A stretch of 39,438 nt of DNA. It comes from Paludibacteraceae bacterium (GTDB lineage: Bacteria > Bacteroidota > Bacteroidia > Bacteroidales > Paludibacteraceae). The stretch lies in the NCBI GenBank assembly GCA_017630395.1, contig JAGBVI010000082.1, forward strand, positions 1 through 39,438, in the 5' to 3' direction. The notes under the pieces were generated by a model. That model was not told the origin of the DNA. It searched no databases and was given only the letters and a program-made list of their open reading frames with translations. Below, piece after piece: positions 18,165 to 38,545 of the stretch. Position 1 is the stretch's first letter. Every line of letters starts with the position of its first letter. The position numbers and the translations under genes are program-made.

Positions 18165-19619
18165 ATGAAAAAATTATTCATTTTAGTCTGTGCAGTGTTA
18201 GCGACCCTTACGGTTTCTGCGCAAACAGAAGACAGACCATGGAGTGTAGGACTTTATGGAGGTAAAGTTGAGGCAGCTAATGATTGGGGAAATAAATTTT
18301 TCCATGTAACAGACAATTTTTACGGTGCTGCGTCATTAACATTTTCTCGTTATTTGAACGAACATTTTGATGTTGGTTTACAAGCATTATGGGGACGTTA
18401 TGGCATAGGTGAAGGAGAGTTCTTCTCTAATGACGGCGAGTTTAAATCAGGTTTAGGTTATGTTGATTTGATGGGTAAATTTAAATTTGTTAAGAATGAA
18501 GAGGCTTTGCTTCATCCATTCGTATTCATTAACTTGGGAGCACGTGCAATTTATGGATTGGATGATGCAACTGATTTCCAAACTACAAGCGATGCGAACA
18601 AAGGAGTAAACTTTGTATTAGGCGGAGGTCTTGGTTGTGATATGAGATTGTCTGATGCTTGGGGTATTCGTTACTTTGCTAAGTATGGTTATCCAATGGG
18701 TTCTACAGCTGATTTGGCTGAAAACCGTGAGTGTGGTGCATTCAACGATCAACACTTGATTCACAACTTAGGAATTTATGTAAACTTCGCATTCAATACA
18801 GATAAAGATGGTGACGGTGTTCCTAACAAGTTGGATCAATGTCCTAATACACCTGCTGGAGTATCTGTAGATGCTAATGGTTGTCCGTTGGATACAGATA
18901 AGGATGGTGTTGCAGACTACTTGGATAAATGTCCTGGAACTCCTGAAGGTATCTCTGTTGACTCTGTAGGTTGTCCTTTTGATGCTGATAAGGATGGTGT
19001 TGCAGACTATTTGGATCAATGTCCTGAAACTCCTGAAAACGTTTCTGTTGATGAGAATGGTTGTCCATTGGATTCTGACGGTGATGGTGTTGCAGACTAC
19101 TTGGATAAATGTCCTGGAACTCCTTCTGCTGCTAAGGGTTACGTAACTGAGGATGGTTGCCCTACAGATAAAGATGGTGACGGTGTGTTCGACTTCGAAG
19201 ATGTTTGTGTTGACGTTGCCGGAGTAAAAGAAAACAAAGGTTGCCCTGAAATTAAAGCAGAGGTTAAGAAAGTATTTGAAAAAGCTTTGAACGGTATCCA
19301 ATTCCAAACAGGTTCTGCTAAAATCAAATCTGTTTCTAACAAAATCTTGAATGATGTTGTTAACATTATGAAGGAAAATCCTTCTTACAAGTTGTCTATC
19401 AACGGTCATACTGATAATGTAGGTGATCCTGCTAAAAACCAAAAATTGTCTGAAGATAGAGCTGCTGCTGTTAAGAAGTACTTGGAAGATAAAGGTATTG
19501 AGTCTTCTAGATTGACTTCTGCAGGATTTGGTCAAGATCAACCTGTTGAAACAAATAAAACTGCTAGTGGTCGTGCTAAGAACAGACGTGTAGAGTTTAA
19601 GGTTGTTTTTGAAAAATAA
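18165..19619 (+). CDS. OmpA-family porin with thrombospondin type 3 repeats
   Basis: A 484-residue outer-membrane protein: signal peptide MKKLFILVCAVLATLTVSAQ, an N-terminal eight-stranded beta-barrel domain (to about residue 208), a calcium-binding TSP3 linker (about 213-362), and a C-terminal OmpA peptidoglycan-binding domain (INGHTDNVGDPAKNQKLSEDRA, KNRRVEF). The linker has five to six DxDxDGV..D..D.CP.TP.. units with paired Cys. It is expected to tether the outer membrane to the cell wall. The uniform codon use (GTT/GGT/GCT-rich), good promoter and strong terminator suggest high expression from a single-gene transcript. Confidence 0.92.
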   Translation: MKKLFILVCAVLATLTVSAQTEDRPWSVGLYGGKVEAANDWGNKFFHVTDNFYGAASLTFSRYLNEHFDVGLQALWGRYGIGEGEFFSNDGEFKSGLGYVDLMGKFKFVKNEEALLHPFVFINLGARAIYGLDDATDFQTTSDANKGVNFVLGGGLGCDMRLSDAWGIRYFAKYGYPMGSTADLAENRECGAFNDQHLIHNLGIYVNFAFNTDKDGDGVPNKLDQCPNTPAGVSVDANGCPLDTDKDGVADYLDKCPGTPEGISVDSVGCPFDADKDGVADYLDQCPETPENVSVDENGCPLDSDGDGVADYLDKCPGTPSAAKGYVTEDGCPTDKDGDGVFDFEDVCVDVAGVKENKGCPEIKAEVKKVFEKALNGIQFQTGSAKIKSVSNKILNDVVNIMKENPSYKLSINGHTDNVGDPAKNQKLSEDRAAAVKKYLEDKGIESSRLTSAGFGQDQPVETNKTASGRAKNRRVEFKVVFEK

Positions 19620-26883: not shown

Positions 26884-26920
26884 AGTTTGGGTAGCCGACT
26901 TGAGATAAAATTCTACGAAA

Positions 26921-26940
26921 AGAATTTATAGAACCCACCT
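26921..26940 (+). repeat. Motif C copy joined to element A5
   Basis: AGAATTTATAGAACCCACCT is one of the best motif C copies. It runs straight into a truncated family A copy at 26941, which links the motif physically to the repeat system. Confidence 0.55.
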
Positions 26941-27019
26941 TAAAAAGAATCTCAAAGGTGCCGAAAATAAGAGCGTAAAGCGCTAAATTATTTTTTTTTA
27001 TAAAATCTAAGCAGCTTCT
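26941..27019 (-). repeat. Truncated family A element, copy A5
   Basis: 79 bp matching only one half of family A (same orientation as A3/A4/A6): AAAAAGAATCTCAAAGGTGC, then AAAATAAGAGCG, ending AAATCTAAGCAGCTTCT. The other half, with the central dyad, is missing and replaced by motif C. Confidence 0.7.
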
Positions 27020-27045
27020 AAAGGTTGCCTTAAAGCGTAAAGCGT

Positions 27046-27822: not shown

Positions 27823-27853
27823 TAGAGTTTCAGGGGGCTTTTTTTACAGATTT

Positions 27854-27892
27854 TTCTACATTGCGAATGTATAGGAGGAAGCAAATGTAGAA
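27854..27892. repeat. Inverted repeat downstream of the membrane-protein gene
   Basis: TTCTACATT (27854-27862) and AATGTAGAA (27884-27892) are perfect 9-bp arms around a 21-base loop. No T-run follows, so it is not a clear terminator. It stands between the preceding gene and the 33-bp array; the rest of 27823-27963 shows nothing definite. Confidence 0.4.
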
Positions 27893-27963
27893 TCATAACT
27901 CATCTCCGTCTCTTTTGCAATATATCGCAACACCGGTCTATTGCATCAGTCAAAATTGAGGGG

Positions 27964-28378
27964 CATACTTTGTTACAAAAATCAAATAATTATACTGTCA
28001 GTTTGTTACAAGAATTATAGAATTATACCGTCTTTTTGTTACAAGAAATATACCGTCTTTTTATTACAAAAATCATAGAATTATACCGTCTTTTTGTTAC
28101 AAGAATCGTAGTATTATACCATCTTTTTATTACAATAAATTATGAAATTAACCGTCTTTTTGTTACAAGAATCGTAGTATTATACCGTCATTTTGTTACA
28201 ATAAATTGTGAAATTAATCGTCTGTTTGTTACAAAAATTAAAGAATTATACCGTCTGTTTATTACAATATTTTTATAATTTAACCCCCATTTTATTACAA
28301 AAAAATCATAATTATACCGTCATTTTATTACAAAAATGTTATATTTGTACCGTCATTTTATTACAAAAAACATAGCGT
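27964..28378 (+). repeat. 33-bp-period tandem array abutting an ATPase gene
   Basis: Thirteen copies of TTACAA begin at 27973, 28006, 28039, 28064, 28097, 28130, 28163, 28196, 28229, 28262, 28295, 28328 and 28361. Every step is exactly 33 bases except one of 25. Each unit has a conserved core close to ACCGTCTTTTTGTTACAA and a more variable AT-rich remainder (often AGAATCATAGAATTAT). The last core ends 12 bases before the ATPase ATG at 28379. In unit 12 the remainder has changed to contain TATATTTG (28340-28347), a -7 promoter element, so transcription of the ATPase may start inside the array. The spacing (about three helical turns) would place bound proteins on nearly one DNA face. Confidence 0.93.
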
Positions 28379-29720
28379 ATGATAAGGAGATTAGCAGTAC
28401 ATAAATTAAGAGAATGGAGATATTCTGAAGATAGGAAACCCTTGATAATAAGGGGTGTTCGTCAGGTTGGTAAGACAACCTTGGTGAAAGAGTTTGCCAA
28501 GGAGTTTGATACTTTTGCATCTTAATCTAGAACGTAGTAAAGAATCCGAGTTATTTGAACAGACAGATGATGTGGGTCAATTGTTGCAATCTATCTATTT
28601 TCATAAAAAGCAGGAGCAAAAAGATGGTTCTGTACTTCTTTTCATAGATGAGATACAAAACTCAAAAAAGGCGGTTGCTATGTTGCGTTATTTCTATGAA
28701 GAAGCTCCGGAGATTCATGTAATTGTGGCAGGTTCTTTGTTAGAGACGGTGATGGATGTCCGTAAAATCTCATTTCCGGTGGGGCGAGTAGAGTTTATGT
28801 CATTGCGTCCGTGTTCTTTTTTGGAATTTTTAGGCGGATTGGGCGAAGATTTTGACAAAGAACTTGTAGAGAATTTCAGTGTTGAGTCTGTTGTTCATGA
28901 CCGTGTGATGCAGCTCTTTAGGGAGTATGTTTTGGTGGGTGGAATGCCGGCGGTGATTGTGCAGTATGCTAAAAAGAGAGACATCTTGTCGTGTGCGAGC
29001 GTGTTTAACTCATTGTTGCAAGCCTACAAAGATGATGTGGAGAAATATACAAGCAGCAAAACAATGGTGAAGGTGATACGCACGATAATGAGTTATGGTT
29101 GGCAGAGTGCGGCAGAGACCATCTCGTTTGAAGGATTTGGCGGAACCAGCTATCGGTCGAGAGAGATGAGCGAGGCTTTTCAAATCATCGCTAAAGCTAT
29201 GTTGACAGAGTTGGTCTATCCAACATCAGATACCCAAGTTCCGATATTGCCCAACTTTAAGAAACGTCCTAAATTGTTGTGGGTGGATACGGGTATTGTT
29301 AATTATGCATCCAAAGTGCAGAACTATGTTTTTTCTGCAAAAGATATATGTGACGTGTGGCGAGGCAGGATAGCGGAACATATAGTGGCTCAAGAACTTG
29401 TGGCGTATGACAATGATATAGCACTTCGTCATAACTATTGGCGCAGAGACAAGGAGGGGTCTGATGCAGAGGTTGATTTTCTTTATCAGTTCAAGAGCTT
29501 AGTGGTTCCGATAGAGGTGAAGTTCGGACATAATGCCAAACTTAAATCGTTGCATCTTTTTATGGAAAAAGCTCCGCACGCCATAGCAATCAGAGTTTGG
29601 TCTAATCCTTATTCTATTAATAATGTGACAACCTTGGGAGGTAAGCAGTTCAAGTTGATCAACGTCCCGTTTTATTATGTTGGGCAAATAGAGAGGATAT
29701 TAGAGAAAGAGTTGTGTTGA
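28379..29720 (+). pseudogene. AAA/DUF4143 ATPase, frameshifted
   Basis: The gene starts at ATG 28379 (MIRRLAVHKLREW) and carries the Walker A motif GVRQVGKTTL, but its frame ends in TAA after KEFDTFAS. The rest continues in the +1 frame from LHLNLERSKESELF to 29720. That second part holds Walker B (VLLFIDEIQNS), the sensor region VIVAGSLLE, RVEFMSLRPCSFLEFL, and a C-terminal DUF4143 domain with a nuclease-like D...E.K pattern (GSDAEVDFLY, then VPIEVKFG). The break falls at a T4 run (28513-28516). Restoring one frame gives a protein of about 445 residues, normal for the family. Either the gene is inactivated, or the T run is a phase-variable or slippage site, or there is a sequencing error. 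It lies between two 33-bp-period repeats. Confidence 0.85.
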
Positions 29721-29798
29721 AAAGTGTATCTTTTTCGCTCTAAAATATATTGAAAAGTGTATATTTTCGAGTGAAAATTATATTGAAAAGTGTATTTT
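29717..29798 (+). repeat. Second 33-bp-period repeat overlapping the ATPase stop
   Basis: TTGAAAAGTGTAT starts at 29717, 29750 and 29783, exactly 33 bases apart; the third unit is partial. The sequence is unrelated to the upstream array but has the same period. The first unit includes the ATPase stop codon TGA (29718-29720). Confidence 0.85.
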
Positions 29799-29998
29799 GG
29801 GTGTGTTATATAGGAAAATTGAAGCTTATTTGAAGTCAGACTACGACAGCTTACCCAAAAAAGGATTTGCGCAGATGATGCGTTAAAATACGATTATAGA
29901 ACCTACTATAGTGCATAGGATAATTTATTTGAATTTTATAGAAAAATGTAAAAGAATTTTATTATCTTTGGAAATGGAGAATAATTTTTTTTCACTAG
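29799..29998 (+). other. Gap between ATPase repeats and the IS element
   Basis: Holds a short open segment (about 29812-29886) that would read RKIEAYLKSDYDSLPKKGFA and end in TAA; it looks like a C-terminal gene remnant but I cannot assign it. A weak motif C copy (ATTATAGAACCTACT, 29893-29907) follows. Just before the IS is the -7-like TATCTTTG with an ATG at 29974 (MENNFF). Confidence 0.35.
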
Positions 29999-31308
29999 TG
30001 TCCAAAAGATTTTTTGACAAACCTTTGTAACTTATTAACATATAGTTAAATATAACAGAAAACATTGCGTGTCGATTTGAATAGATTTCGCATATTTGCT
30101 GCCGACATTAGAATCGGACAAGCATGAATGCAGGCAAATACATATTCAGTCAACTCGTTAGTTTTCTTCCTAAAAGAGTCTTTGATGGCATTGTAAAAAG
30201 ACACGAAGGAGATAAGTGGGTGAAGCATTTCACCTGTTGGAATCAACTCCTTGTCATGATGTTCGGACAACTCGCGGGCTGTGACAGACTCAGGGAAGTC
30301 GCTGCGATCATTGATGCCATCAAGAGTAAGAGCTACCATCTCGGTTTCGGTAGTGGAAACATAAAGCTTAGCAATCTGTCTTATGCTAACGCCAACCGAG
30401 ATTACAAGATATTTGAGGAGTTTGCCTACCATATGATTAACCTTGCCCAGAGCAAGAGAATCACAAAGCCGTTCGTTCTCAATGGCAAATTCTACGCATT
30501 CGATTCGACGACGATAGATCTCTGCATGAGTCTGTTCGAGTGGGCATACTTCCGTAAAACCAAGAGCGGAATCAAGGTGCACACCTTGTTTGATGTGGTC
30601 CTCAGATTCCTACCTACATTCGCATTACTGAAGCGAAACTTCATGACGTGAATGCAATGGATGAGGTACCTTACGAGCCTAATGCGTTCTATATCTTTGA
30701 CAAAGGCTACTATGACCTTGCAAGATTGTATAGAATACAGAGTATTGGTTCCATGTTTATCATCCGAGCGAAGGAGCATCTCAAGTACGAAGTGGTAGCT
30801 GAAGATGAACTGTTGGATGGGGATGACAATGTGCTGCTTGAACAGACCATAAGACTGACTGGCCAGCTGACAAAGGCCAAGTACCCATCTGAGTTGAGGA
30901 GGATAGTTTACTATGCTCCTGAACTGAAGCGGACGTTCACATTCCTTACGAATGACTTTACGATCGAGGCTAAGGACATTGCAATGCTCTATAAGTAGAG
31001 ATGGCAGGTGGAACTGTTCTTCAGGTGGATAAAACAGCATCTTCGCGTGCTCTCCTTTTGGGGAACCAGCGAGAATGCTGTGAGAATACAGATATATGTT
31101 GCAGTCATCACATACTGCCTTGTGGCCATCGTCCAGCACGATTGTCAGCTTGGAAGAACAACGTTCAATGTCCTCCGAGTTCTGAGCAGAGTCTTGACCG
31201 ACAAGACCTCCATCAGAGACCTTTTTAAAGGCTCCGAAACTATCGAGGATGCGGATGATGAGACTGTTCAACTGCAATTTGAGTTTAAGTTTTAAATTTT
31301 ATTGGACG
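29999..31308 (+). mobile_element. IS4-family insertion sequence, inactivated
   Basis: About 1310 bp with imperfect inverted ends: TGTCCAAAAGATTTT on the left, and on the right the inverse of CGTCCAATAAAATTT. Both flanks carry CTAG (29995-29998 and 31309-31312), the likely 4-bp target duplication. The two flanking bases TG on the right match the element's first bases, so the boundary could shift by two. It encodes one transposase, now broken twice. It interrupted or truncated the helicase gene to its right. Confidence 0.75.
30124..31295 (+). pseudogene. IS4-family transposase with frameshift and stop
   Basis: Three pieces of one DDE transposase. The first (from MNAGKYIFSQLVSFLPKRVFD) contains the N-terminal domain and the first catalytic Asp in YAFDSTTIDLC. 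It leaves frame near 30600, where one base seems to be missing (the next frame resumes IPTYIRITEAKLHDVNAMDE). The second piece carries the second Asp (FYIFDKGY) and ends at a TAG (30996-30998) that replaces the Tyr of the expected YK.RWQVELFF. The third piece continues in the same frame with the catalytic Glu (RWQVELFFRWIKQHL) to TAA at 31295. The enzyme cannot be made without two corrections. Confidence 0.88.
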
Positions 31309-35329: not shown

Positions 35330-38300
35330 TTAGCTAGCCACATCAACGCTATCTATCGTTTCAGTTTTAGGTAGAATCTGTAGTCCTTTAATCATAGTCT
35401 TAAACCCTTCATGGGTAGAATTATCATAGGAATTAATCATTTCTTTCTTAAGATCTGAAGCCTGGTCCAAATTAGTATGCAACAACGGTTTATAAAAATC
35501 CTTGTTATCATAAATAATGCCTTGTACCTCATTATTACCTATTGTAGGTTTTAATACATAATTCAGATATTGTGTCTCATATCCTCTCGTCTTTTCCATG
35601 TAATGATGCAGGGATTTAAACTTGAAGACATTGATAGTTAGTTGCCCTCCTAATTTGCCCATCATATCAATTACTTTAGATGATACCTTATTAAATTCAG
35701 CCCAAGAAAGAATTTTCGACTGAAGATCCATATTTTCATTTTTGTCAATTATATGGCCTGTAAATATGCCATCAATAATATGCGTTGTTATCTCTACTAA
35801 TTTCTCAGAGCAAGTTTGTTTAAATTCCTTTGTATCGATAAGTGTTTTTAGGACACGCAACCAGTAACTATTGTTCAATGTTACCCAAGCATTATTTGAA
35901 GTCATAAATGCTGTTATTGATTGCTCATTAAAATCATGGTAGAACTTATCTAGAATAGCGGTGGAAAGCGGACAGTTTTCTTCAATAAGTGCTTTACACC
36001 ACATTTCATTTCCGAACACATTTGACAGTACCACCTTTTTCTCTACATCATTAAGAGTATTTTTACCCAAATCATTAATAAATCTTATTAGTAAACCGTG
36101 TTCAACATTGGTTAGAGTTCTGATATTAGACATTTCCGTTAAAACATCTTCAATTTCATTTAGATCGCCAAGGTGCTGGTTATTCTTAATGAGACATGCC
36201 ATCACGTTTTTCATAACCATAGTACTGCTGGTAAGTGTTTTCTTCCATATGCCATAACTATCTGTATAACTATATGCGAGTTCTGCCAGATTTGCGTAAT
36301 AAGATTCTTTTTCTCCACTAATTTCCTTCCCTTCCAAAGCTCTCAATAGTTGCAAATCATATAACACCGCTCCATCATGTGATAAAGAATCAAGATAGGC
36401 AAGATTGACATTTAGCTTTAGAGGTCCATTTGACAACACTTTACACATATTAAGTACTGACTCTATATTATCATCTGTAGCGGTTTTACCTTCAATAATA
36501 CCCCTCGTTGCTATCAAAAGATCATTTAGGTCATAACGTACATCATCTTTTAGAAGTTTAATTGCATCTGAAAAATCAACACCTTCTTTTATTCGGTCTG
36601 CAACATATACATTAAGTTCGCAATTATCACAATATATAGGGTAATTTATATATTTATCTTTTGCTGATATAATATAATCAACAAAATTCTCAGCATTTAG
36701 AATCGTCTCTGGCAATTGAACATTAATGGCATTCTCTTTAGTATAAGCATCAAAGCCTTTATAAGTCATAAACCACTCTTCTCCCTTATGTTGATTTTTC
36801 TCCGATGTGGTAAATAATTCTAAAAACTTTTTAGCTATATCTTCTTTCTGTTCTTGCTTATAGCAATTATCCATCAATAATTGTACTTCATTTCTAAAAG
36901 AAGTCTCATTCTGCGTTCTTTTAAGGTATACTCGTCCTAGTCGTAACCAGATTCTATCAATCAATTTTAAATTATCTTCTGTAACATTGTTTCTAATGAT
37001 TTTTGAGATATGATTGATGGCATTATCCAAATAAGAAGAATCCATTCCGCTTGTAACTTCATCCAGAATGACAAAGAACTCCTGTTGTTCGTTAGCATAC
37101 AGATCGAAATTTGATGCATTTTTGCTAGCAAGTGCTTTTTCTGTCAAGTTCTTAAGAGGTAACTGAGCTGATTTTTTCTTGGGAACACCATACACTAGTG
37201 AAGATATCTCAACTGGCAATTTTTCATCATTTTCTATTATGCTTCCAAACTTTCCGATGTATTCACCGCTTACAATAACCTCATCTGGTTTATTATCATC
37301 AAAAATAATATCTTTATTTAATTCAAAAAGTGCTATACTTGTCAATCTGATTTCATTCTCCCATGTATGACATAGTGATACACATTTATTTATAAATGAT
37401 ATCATCTCTCTCATATTAGGTGTAGGGTGTTTTAAACGATAGCAACGATTTATTAAGTCTTGTTCATCTCTTACGCCAAAGGCCTTATTGAATAAATCTT
37501 TGAACACACCGCGATAGTCCGTTATTATTGGTGCAGGAATTCGATATACAACAGGAAATGTTTTCTCAATAAAGTAATTTGTTAAGGGTAGTTTCTTCTC
37601 TGCTGCTGCATTTTCTTCAGCAAATGCATTAGCCAAGTGTTCTCGATCGAATGGAACAATACACCAAACTTTGTTATAATCTTTACCAGCAAAAAAGGTT
37701 TGTATAGATGACCATAGTTGGCGTACCTTCTCCCTAGGTAGTCTATCCATGTTGTCAAAAACAATTACCAAATGCATACCTTCTCTTAAAGAATCTGCTA
37801 AATCATTCAACCATTTACGAAACTCTGTAACTGAAGGTTCTAATTCACTTATTGTATAAGTAGCAGTATCTGTTTTACCCTCTGTCTGATACATTTTCCA
37901 CATCTCACACCATGTCCACTTATTTATCTTTTTACAAATATAAAAAACGATAAACGGAAGAAGTGTTGCTCCTAGAATTGCAAGTAAATACCAAGAAGGT
38001 GCCGAATCAGGTTTCATCGCATCCATCATTGTGGGTATTATCGTAGTTATTAACAACATCAAAGCAAAAGCTTTAGTGGAACTTTCCATTTTAGGAATAG
38101 TTACATCATGTGTCGTTGACTTTCTTGCAACCAAAGTAAATAACCTTCTTTTCCAACTACATTTCTTTACTGTTGGTTCTTGGTCAAGATCAGTATCAAG
38201 AATTGTTATTTCAGTCTCCTTAACTAACAGTTCTTTTTGAATTAGATTATCGGTCAACTGTTCTAAGATAGACCTACGTTGCAAATCCTCTTGATTTCCC

Positions 38301-38545
38301 CAAGCATCATATGTAAAGAAATAATAATTAGATTTCAGCTTATCTTGTAATCGTAGAAGCATATTTGACTTACCAGATCCCCATGTTCCTTCCACACCAA
38401 TAATGCGAGGAAGTGTATTAACATTGTTCTTCTCGGCATCAACCTCTTCCATATGTTTCTTTATGGCCTTTGCGACATAATCCTGCGACTTGCCATCTAA
38501 AAGGTCTTCACCTAGAGGCCTGTTTGATAAGAAATCTGCTTTCAT
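35330..38545 (-). CDS. KAP family P-loop NTPase
   Basis: A 1071-residue protein. The N-terminal NTPase has Walker A GTWGSGKS (residues 53-60) and Walker B LVIVFDNMDR (about 259-268). Two transmembrane helices (about 159-177 and 185-206) are inserted between them, the diagnostic layout of KAP NTPases (Kidins220, ARMS, PifA). KVWCIVPFDREHLANAF follows Walker B as expected. The remaining 650 or so residues are helical without a recognised domain. Founder PifA mediates exclusion of phage T7, and KAP genes are often found among defence genes. Here it follows RloB on the same strand after a 110-base gap (38546-38655) that holds only AT-rich sequence. Confidence 0.85.
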   Translation of the reverse strand: MKADFLSNRPLGEDLLDGKSQDYVAKAIKKHMEEVDAEKNNVNTLPRIIGVEGTWGSGKSNMLLRLQDKLKSNYYFFTYDAWGNQEDLQRRSILEQLTDNLIQKELLVKETEITILDTDLDQEPTVKKCSWKRRLFTLVARKSTTHDVTIPKMESSTKAFALMLLITTIIPTMMDAMKPDSAPSWYLLAILGATLLPFIVFYICKKINKWTWCEMWKMYQTEGKTDTATYTISELEPSVTEFRKWLNDLADSLREGMHLVIVFDNMDRLPREKVRQLWSSIQTFFAGKDYNKVWCIVPFDREHLANAFAEENAAAEKKLPLTNYFIEKTFPVVYRIPAPIITDYRGVFKDLFNKAFGVRDEQDLINRCYRLKHPTPNMREMISFINKCVSLCHTWENEIRLTSIALFELNKDIIFDDNKPDEVIVSGEYIGKFGSIIENDEKLPVEISSLVYGVPKKKSAQLPLKNLTEKALASKNASNFDLYANEQQEFFVILDEVTSGMDSSYLDNAINHISKIIRNNVTEDNLKLIDRIWLRLGRVYLKRTQNETSFRNEVQLLMDNCYKQEQKEDIAKKFLELFTTSEKNQHKGEEWFMTYKGFDAYTKENAINVQLPETILNAENFVDYIISAKDKYINYPIYCDNCELNVYVADRIKEGVDFSDAIKLLKDDVRYDLNDLLIATRGIIEGKTATDDNIESVLNMCKVLSNGPLKLNVNLAYLDSLSHDGAVLYDLQLLRALEGKEISGEKESYYANLAELAYSYTDSYGIWKKTLTSSTMVMKNVMACLIKNNQHLGDLNEIEDVLTEMSNIRTLTNVEHGLLIRFINDLGKNTLNDVEKKVVLSNVFGNEMWCKALIEENCPLSTAILDKFYHDFNEQSITAFMTSNNAWVTLNNSYWLRVLKTLIDTKEFKQTCSEKLVEITTHIIDGIFTGHIIDKNENMDLQSKILSWAEFNKVSSKVIDMMGKLGGQLTINVFKFKSLHHYMEKTRGYETQYLNYVLKPTIGNNEVQGIIYDNKDFYKPLLHTNLDQASDLKKEMINSYDNSTHEGFKTMIKGLQILPKTETIDSVDVAS

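Follow-up and report, generated by a model that had tools for sequence, protein, structure and literature searches.

PDC-S01 is a phage defense candidate in PADLOC and, in the sections of the source consulted, is ranked as the fourth most common defense across all prokaryotes; most candidates of this kind in the core set still await validation (PMC12988326). In the portions of two papers that turned up on a look-up of tandem or direct repeats, no upstream array was found for PDC-S01 (PMC12988326; PMC13356809), and no report of arrays beside DUF4143, COG1373, AAA_14, or PDC-S01 genes was found in the open-licence literature, preprints apart. A repeat-based regulator is described elsewhere in phage defense: RptR, the repressor of a phage-defense island, controls defense genes and binds its own promoter at three direct repeats, and appears in the excerpts of its description as a separate 9-kDa repressor whose 9-bp repeats carry a 6-bp palindrome (PMC12255303). 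By comparison, the units of the type considered here are about 33 bp long, and the protein proposed to bind them is the effector, the ATPase-nuclease. These units were encountered in a 39,438-nucleotide stretch of DNA from a Paludibacteraceae bacterium (contig JAGBVI010000082.1), referred to below as the window.

DnaA boxes, Orc1/Cdc6 origin boxes, and MalT boxes are rows of sites occupied by AAA+ or STAND ATPases, in some cases on the ATPase's own promoter. The present case would resemble them as an ATPase on rows of sites, but differs by its putative nuclease domain and paralogue-specific sites; to our knowledge, DnaA, Orc1/Cdc6, and MalT contain no nuclease domain, and their sites do not change with each paralogue. 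CRISPR loci share with the ATPase arrays regular direct repeats and a defense context—csm-type and cas1 genes stand beside an array in the sister species G006—whereas the ATPase arrays have a short period, no unique spacers, and units anchored at a promoter. For the window itself, a CRISPR array was considered and rejected: the remainder of each unit is a drifting repeat, and no cas gene was found among the ten window ORFs scanned with Pfam. A cognate, co-evolving array would give PDC-S01 a concrete DNA target and a regulatory handle, and the array sequence could help to sort this large family into specificity groups.

The window array is a 33-bp direct repeat of 13 units with the core ACCGTC(T/A)TTTT(G/A)TTACAA (27969..28369, forward strand). 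TTACAA starts at 27973, 28006, 28039, 28064, 28097, 28130, 28163, 28196, 28229, 28262, 28295, 28328, and 28361, giving 11 steps of 33 bp and one of 25 bp, and TRF reports the interval 27969-28369 with a period of 33, 12.4 copies, and a score of 334. The regularity claimed in the initial annotation was thus borne out, as was the reach of the array to within 12 bases of the ATPase start codon, with the last TTACAA ending at 28366 and the ATG lying at 28379-28381. A TTATAA at 28273, also picked up by a looser pattern, was not counted as an array unit. The single 25-bp step separates units 3 and 4 (28027..28069, forward strand), the cores of which are both intact, with the variable part between them being 8 bp shorter. 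Searching the 3.57-Mb genome for the core ACCGTCNTTTTRTTACAA with up to two mismatches gave 12 matches, all 12 of them inside the window array, compared with seven matches in the genome for the same pattern read backwards. The consensus of the Bacteroidota −7 promoter box is TAnnTTTG, and its match in the window, TATATTTG (28340..28347, forward strand), had been placed in the last remainder; it in fact sits between units 12 and 13, with the last core (unit 13; 28349..28366, forward strand) on its 3′ side.

The gene behind the array was taken at first to be intact, a frame break having been overlooked. The first piece (28379..28525, forward strand) encodes Walker A and the N-terminal part of AAA_14 and ends at a stop after 48 codons; the rest of AAA_14 and DUF4143 are encoded in a different frame by the second piece (28494..29720, forward strand). 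The second piece matches the PADLOC profile PDLC04788 at 3e-153, and the PDC-S01 profiles also match all seven relatives scanned, placing the gene—in two frames in the window and in one open frame in the sister species—in the PDC-S01/AAA_14-DUF4143 family. The nuclease-like pattern reported for DUF4143 was again recognized, by eye, as E...D...ExK in the second piece, and E334, E380, and K382 are invariant across 61 sequences. A second 33-bp array of different sequence (TTGAAAAGTGTAT...; 29717..29795, forward strand; 2.4 copies by TRF) starts at the stop codon of this ATPase and leads into a short remnant resembling the N-terminus of a second ATPase (YRKIEAYL...; 29797..29886, forward strand), the rest of which is missing in the window. 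The ATPase remnants are followed by a DUF4372 match (30124-30648; Pfam E 2e-26), which we presume may be part of a transposase.

Upstream arrays in related loci were sought by scoring self-similarity over the 250 bp upstream of each gene start, taken as the start codon closest to a fixed distance ahead of Walker A, with a threshold of 13 chosen after inspecting shuffles. The best 80 loci in named genomes—Bacteroidota, Bacillota, Spirochaetes, and others by record title—were reduced to 78 by dropping two without 250 bp upstream; 62 of these passed, all at lags of 31-34 (one at 31, 35 at 32, 25 at 33, and one at 34), a proportion that is not a family-wide rate because the loci were chosen by similarity to one subfamily. 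The best lag at any score was 31-34 in 74 of the 78. As controls, nine other intervals in those loci passed in 20 of 658 cases, four of them at lag 31-34, and upstream regions of 248 other ORFs passed in 26 cases, five of them at lag 31-34, with at least one of these five being a second ATPase (L128). After removal of identical upstream regions and those shorter than 120 bp, 150 of 240 gene starts from all sets together passed: 18/37 among the first genus/order loci and those of the window genome, 7/21 among the best Pfam hits of 18 genomes, 6/25 in an archaeal-titled phylum (e.g., L252, L254, and L267), 11/19 on viral contigs (e.g., L198 and L210), 69/90 in named genomes, and 39/48 in 60 fetched genus/order regions, where 26 of the 48 starts passed at lag 31-34 and nine at 21-23. 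The period is mostly 32-33 bp across many phyla and 22-23 bp in other clades. These periods also led to rejection of a coding repeat, which is unlikely because neither 32 nor 23 bp, both common, is divisible by 3.

The converse comparison was made over 1.077 Mb, comprising the window and 60 stretches around DUF4143 genes from its genome, genus, and order, with 83 ATPase ORF hits including fragments. TRF found 39 arrays with a period of 31-34 and a score of at least 80, 29 of them directly upstream of an ATPase; the remaining ten divide into five directly downstream of an ATPase and five elsewhere, two of which (L072 and L075) also prove, on reading, to stand at an ATPase start. Of the arrays with a period of 22-24, 8/11 are upstream of an ATPase. 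The initial annotation had proposed looking for arrays before homologous ATPases and asking whether they are equally common away from such genes; they are present before the homologues, and in this 1.077 Mb most of those with a period of 31-34 lie directly upstream of one. The arrays are real, widespread, and tied to the ATPase protein, and not a local oddity of the window. Mobile elements carry them as well: in a sample of five complete plasmids (of 55 matched records) and one unverified phage scaffold (of eight), three of the six records passed (Segatella copri L372, Criblamydia L373, and phage L371), the Glaesserella plasmid L370 fell just under the threshold (12.4 at lag 33), and L368 and L369 had no array. 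In the sister family DUF234, none of six usable starts from eight loci passed at lag 31-34 and one passed at lag 15, the sample being small. In L060, one and the same repeat was found on both flanks of the ATPase gene. The family can be numerous, with 63 DUF4143 matches in the genome of about 4.8 Mb that contains L140 (G025).

The protein tree has 257 tips, of which 148 belong to the 33 class and 13 to the 23 class; 10 fall in neither, and 86 have no array. On it, the 33 and 23 classes require three changes, compared with 11-13 in 100 shuffles, and lags of 32 versus 33 require 18, compared with 36-47. Presence or absence of an array requires 45 changes, compared with 64-79, a label that is favored because 24 window-clade tips were added for having arrays. 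The 86 tips without an array above threshold are concentrated in some clades, and odd periods are few (40 in four tips and 51-52 in two). Thus, the repeat period is a clade trait that follows the protein tree. A period of 22-23 bp approximates two helical turns and one of 32-33 bp approximates three, with 40 fitting less well, which is compatible with same-face binding but is not proof of it.

Co-divergence of the repeat core and the ATPase was examined only in loci already carrying an array of lag 30-35, numbering 143, of which 136 had enough far-upstream DNA. Across the 143 arrays, core similarity rises with protein identity. For pairs below 60% identity among the 136 loci, rho is 0.30 for the array, compared with a maximum of 0.10 in 300 permutations, and 0.02 for the DNA at −700 to −450; for 967 cross-phylum pairs, rho is 0.33 for the array versus 0.12 for flanking DNA. 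The site sequence co-varies with the candidate regulator, as is expected of an operator, and since repeat and protein sequences shift together, it is probable that every protein recognizes repeats of its own. The 18-bp core gave 1.19 and 0.78 bits, an excess that arises partly by construction because the core was picked as the best stretch. Among pairs at 45-60% identity, 600 of which were sampled, same-strand similarity exceeded opposite-strand similarity in 77.8%, compared with 49.7% for pairs below 25%. Self-reverse-complement similarity is mild (own above other loci in 99/143), leaving room for a dyad-binding regulator.

When the protein is divided into segments, residues 96-218 give a partial correlation of 0.117 and residues 219-303 one of 0.131, with 0 of 500 permutations as high for either, and residues 1-95, 304-390, and 391-448 give −0.016, 0.013, and 0.011, respectively. 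In 90 non-redundant loci, for which the values carry no permutation test, the two segments gave 0.122 and 0.158, and the others −0.049, 0.060, and −0.023, in the same order. By these comparisons, tracking of the array is confined to the AAA/lid segment and the first half of DUF4143 and does not extend to the nuclease part, with the correlations being small (0.12-0.13). Residues 219-303 look to us like a possible winged helix. No helix-turn-helix (HTH) family is among the Pfam matches shared by more than one member in the covarying segment, where a single weak match to Bac_DnaA_C (E 0.24) was seen; a PDB sequence search of the segment gave nothing convincing for an HTH, and the significant matches in the PDB sequence searches were only to the AAA region of midasin. 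That binding by the ATPase is a prediction and that no HTH emerged from the Pfam and PDB sequence searches would suit a reading in which another host DNA-binding protein reads the array; this appears improbable, however, as the cores follow the ATPase across phyla more closely than flanking DNA does and the signal is located in two parts of the ATPase itself.

The position of the array relative to the promoter, judged by the consensus box alone and taking the last TAnnTTTG match in the final 100 bp before the gene, was compared in three sets. The box is present in 37/40 genus/order loci with an array (2.8 expected), 17/24 window-clade loci (2.1 expected), and 17/62 named-genome loci of mixed phyla (4.8 expected), and its distance from the ATG is mostly about 30 bp. 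In 29/37, 14/17, and 8/17 of these boxed loci, respectively, the box is beyond the end of the array or no more than 3 bp from that end, and nearly all remaining boxes lie 22-71 bp inside the array. A TTACA-like core was recognized before the −7 box in nine of 17 boxed window-clade loci, at a gap of 6-10 bp in seven, 2 bp in one, and 18 bp in one; the same measure in the window is 7 bp. By the consensus box, the repeats therefore abut or overlap the gene's own promoter. The initial annotation had also raised a transcribed repeat leader, and an RNA leader or guide array would be in keeping with the units that fall 3′ of the −7 box in some loci, the window included, and with the nine of 17 boxed named-genome loci in which the box is at least 24 bp upstream of the array end. 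The array would be largely upstream of the transcript, though, because the box is past or within 3 bp of the array end in 43/54 genus/order and window-clade loci combined, and an Rfam search of window positions 27830-29900 gave no match at E up to 1; a transcribed leader is thus disfavored and seems very unlikely, even with the lower proportion in named genomes.

On balance, and with moderate confidence, the array is read here as a putative cognate operator through which the neighboring ATPase-nuclease would control its own promoter. The phased binding-site array for the ATPase proposed at the outset, as part of an array-plus-ATPase/nuclease module, is accordingly retained as the best-supported candidate, given that homologues carry arrays and that the core co-diverges with the protein. 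We infer that the ATPase binds the array, that binding represses rather than activates, and that the module has a role in phage defense. In the proposed mechanism, each unit would offer a core of roughly 18 bp to the ATPase-nuclease. Because neighboring units are about three helical turns apart (or two, roughly, in other clades), bound subunits would align on one DNA face, presumably as a head-to-tail row, the cores being in one orientation relative to the gene. With the units adjoining or overlapping the promoter, the simplest effect of occupancy would be to repress the gene, and this repression would last until ATP state, infection, or dilution frees the protein.

Alternatively, the array might be a working address and not mainly an operator, at which the protein assembles to arm or hold its nuclease, to distinguish invading DNA from self, or to keep related elements out. 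Such a role would accord with cores that differ between paralogues within one genome, with the 63 family matches in a single genome, with the invariant nuclease-like residues in 61 sequences, with the repeat on both gene flanks in L060, and with arrays of about 9-24 units in two sister species; placement next to the promoter, however, is a need of an operator and not of an address, and we regard this alternative as possible but rather unlikely. Beyond the operator reading, a more speculative and quite tentative extension may be considered, in which each ATPase-nuclease has a private DNA address, a row of cores at a fixed period recognized by that protein alone, with many orthogonal pairs per genome. 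The row would then be both a promoter switch and an assembly platform for an ATP-driven nuclease filament, copy number would set the threshold for arming, and some lineages would lengthen several rows together.

The window genome contains 13 DUF4143 matches, and TRF arrays of period 33 lie upstream of six of those genes, with 12.4 (window), 9.9, 2.7, 23.5, 16.4, and 3.4 copies and differing unit sequences. A second species, G006, is 93-95% identical to the window in the longer flanking blocks and 89% identical over the array-ATPase block. It has a matching array of about 10 units (9.9 by TRF), and its ATPase gene is unbroken, with an open frame of about 447 codons; downstream come a counterpart of the window's second array and then a second ATPase (AAA_14) open to the end of the stretch. 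About 13.8 kb between the left neighbor gene and the array in G006 are absent at the corresponding place in the window; this segment (L363, 3435-17205) carries cas1, Cas10/Csm1, RAMP, and Csm4 genes with a repeat array of 73-bp period, as well as a third ATPase and the 32-bp array belonging to it. Both species have long versions of four arrays, with copy numbers of 12.4/9.9, 9.9/8.8, 23.5/16.5, and 16.4/9.6 (window species/G006). Among the 105 of 150 arrays for which a TRF copy number was obtained—a count that leaves out the window's own array and an orphan array of about 8 units (L334)—the copy number is about 2-4 in 98, and the four arrays that reach 8.8 or more all belong to the window species and G006. 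The length of the 13-unit array is thus exceptional, a point overlooked in the initial annotation.

Tandem arrays with periods of 84 and 189 bp also occur in the window genome (L057, 1-623, and L059, 3065-3716, respectively), and tandem repeats may expand readily in this lineage. These arrays, together with copy numbers that vary between the sister species (12.4 vs. 9.9), could be cited for chance, neutral tandem duplication, or a decayed CRISPR as the origin of the window array. Against this, period and position are constant across phyla with unrelated sequences, the core tracks the protein, the variable parts are drifting repeats and not unique spacers, and a separate array of 73-bp period stands with cas1 in the same sister-species stretch; such an origin can be given almost no weight. 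An interspersed repeat of about 115 bp (window 26907-27022) has many copies, 81-88% identical, in the window genome and G006.

The second piece of the window ATPase was searched against 295 genomes of the order and matched at E up to 1e-80 in 49 of them, counting its own. The window-clade set comprised 29 loci, one of which (L296) yielded no gene; 25 of the 28 scanned passed, at lag 33 in 23, 32 in one, and 15 in one. Many of the relatives share the window core, and in others it has drifted; examples of its recurrence at 42-54% identity are L284, L300, and L303, with L284, at 54% identity, carrying the window-type core TACCGTCTTTTTATTACAA. In the opposite direction, the 295 genomes were searched for tandem pairs of window-type cores, allowing at most one mismatch; 39 genomes matched, the window's own included, and most one-mismatch pairs look like chance. 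Among 30 loci fetched from this search, seven have an exact core pair: five are followed by an ATPase just downstream (L317, L319, L323, L330, and L331), L337 is followed by an apparent ATPase N-terminal remnant, as judged by eye, and no ATPase was seen at L342. Exact pairs also occur in G415 and in G020, those in G020 preceding the ATPase of L300. Window-type arrays with no ATPase detected within 1.5 kb are those of L324, L334, L336, L340, and L342, and the L340 array adjoins ORFs that resemble, by eye, an AbiE-like pair. Elsewhere in the window, a 90-bp tandem repeat of 2.9 copies (18864-19124) lies within the ORF at 18165-19619, and a KAP-family P-loop NTPase of 1071 aa is encoded on the minus strand at 35330-38545.
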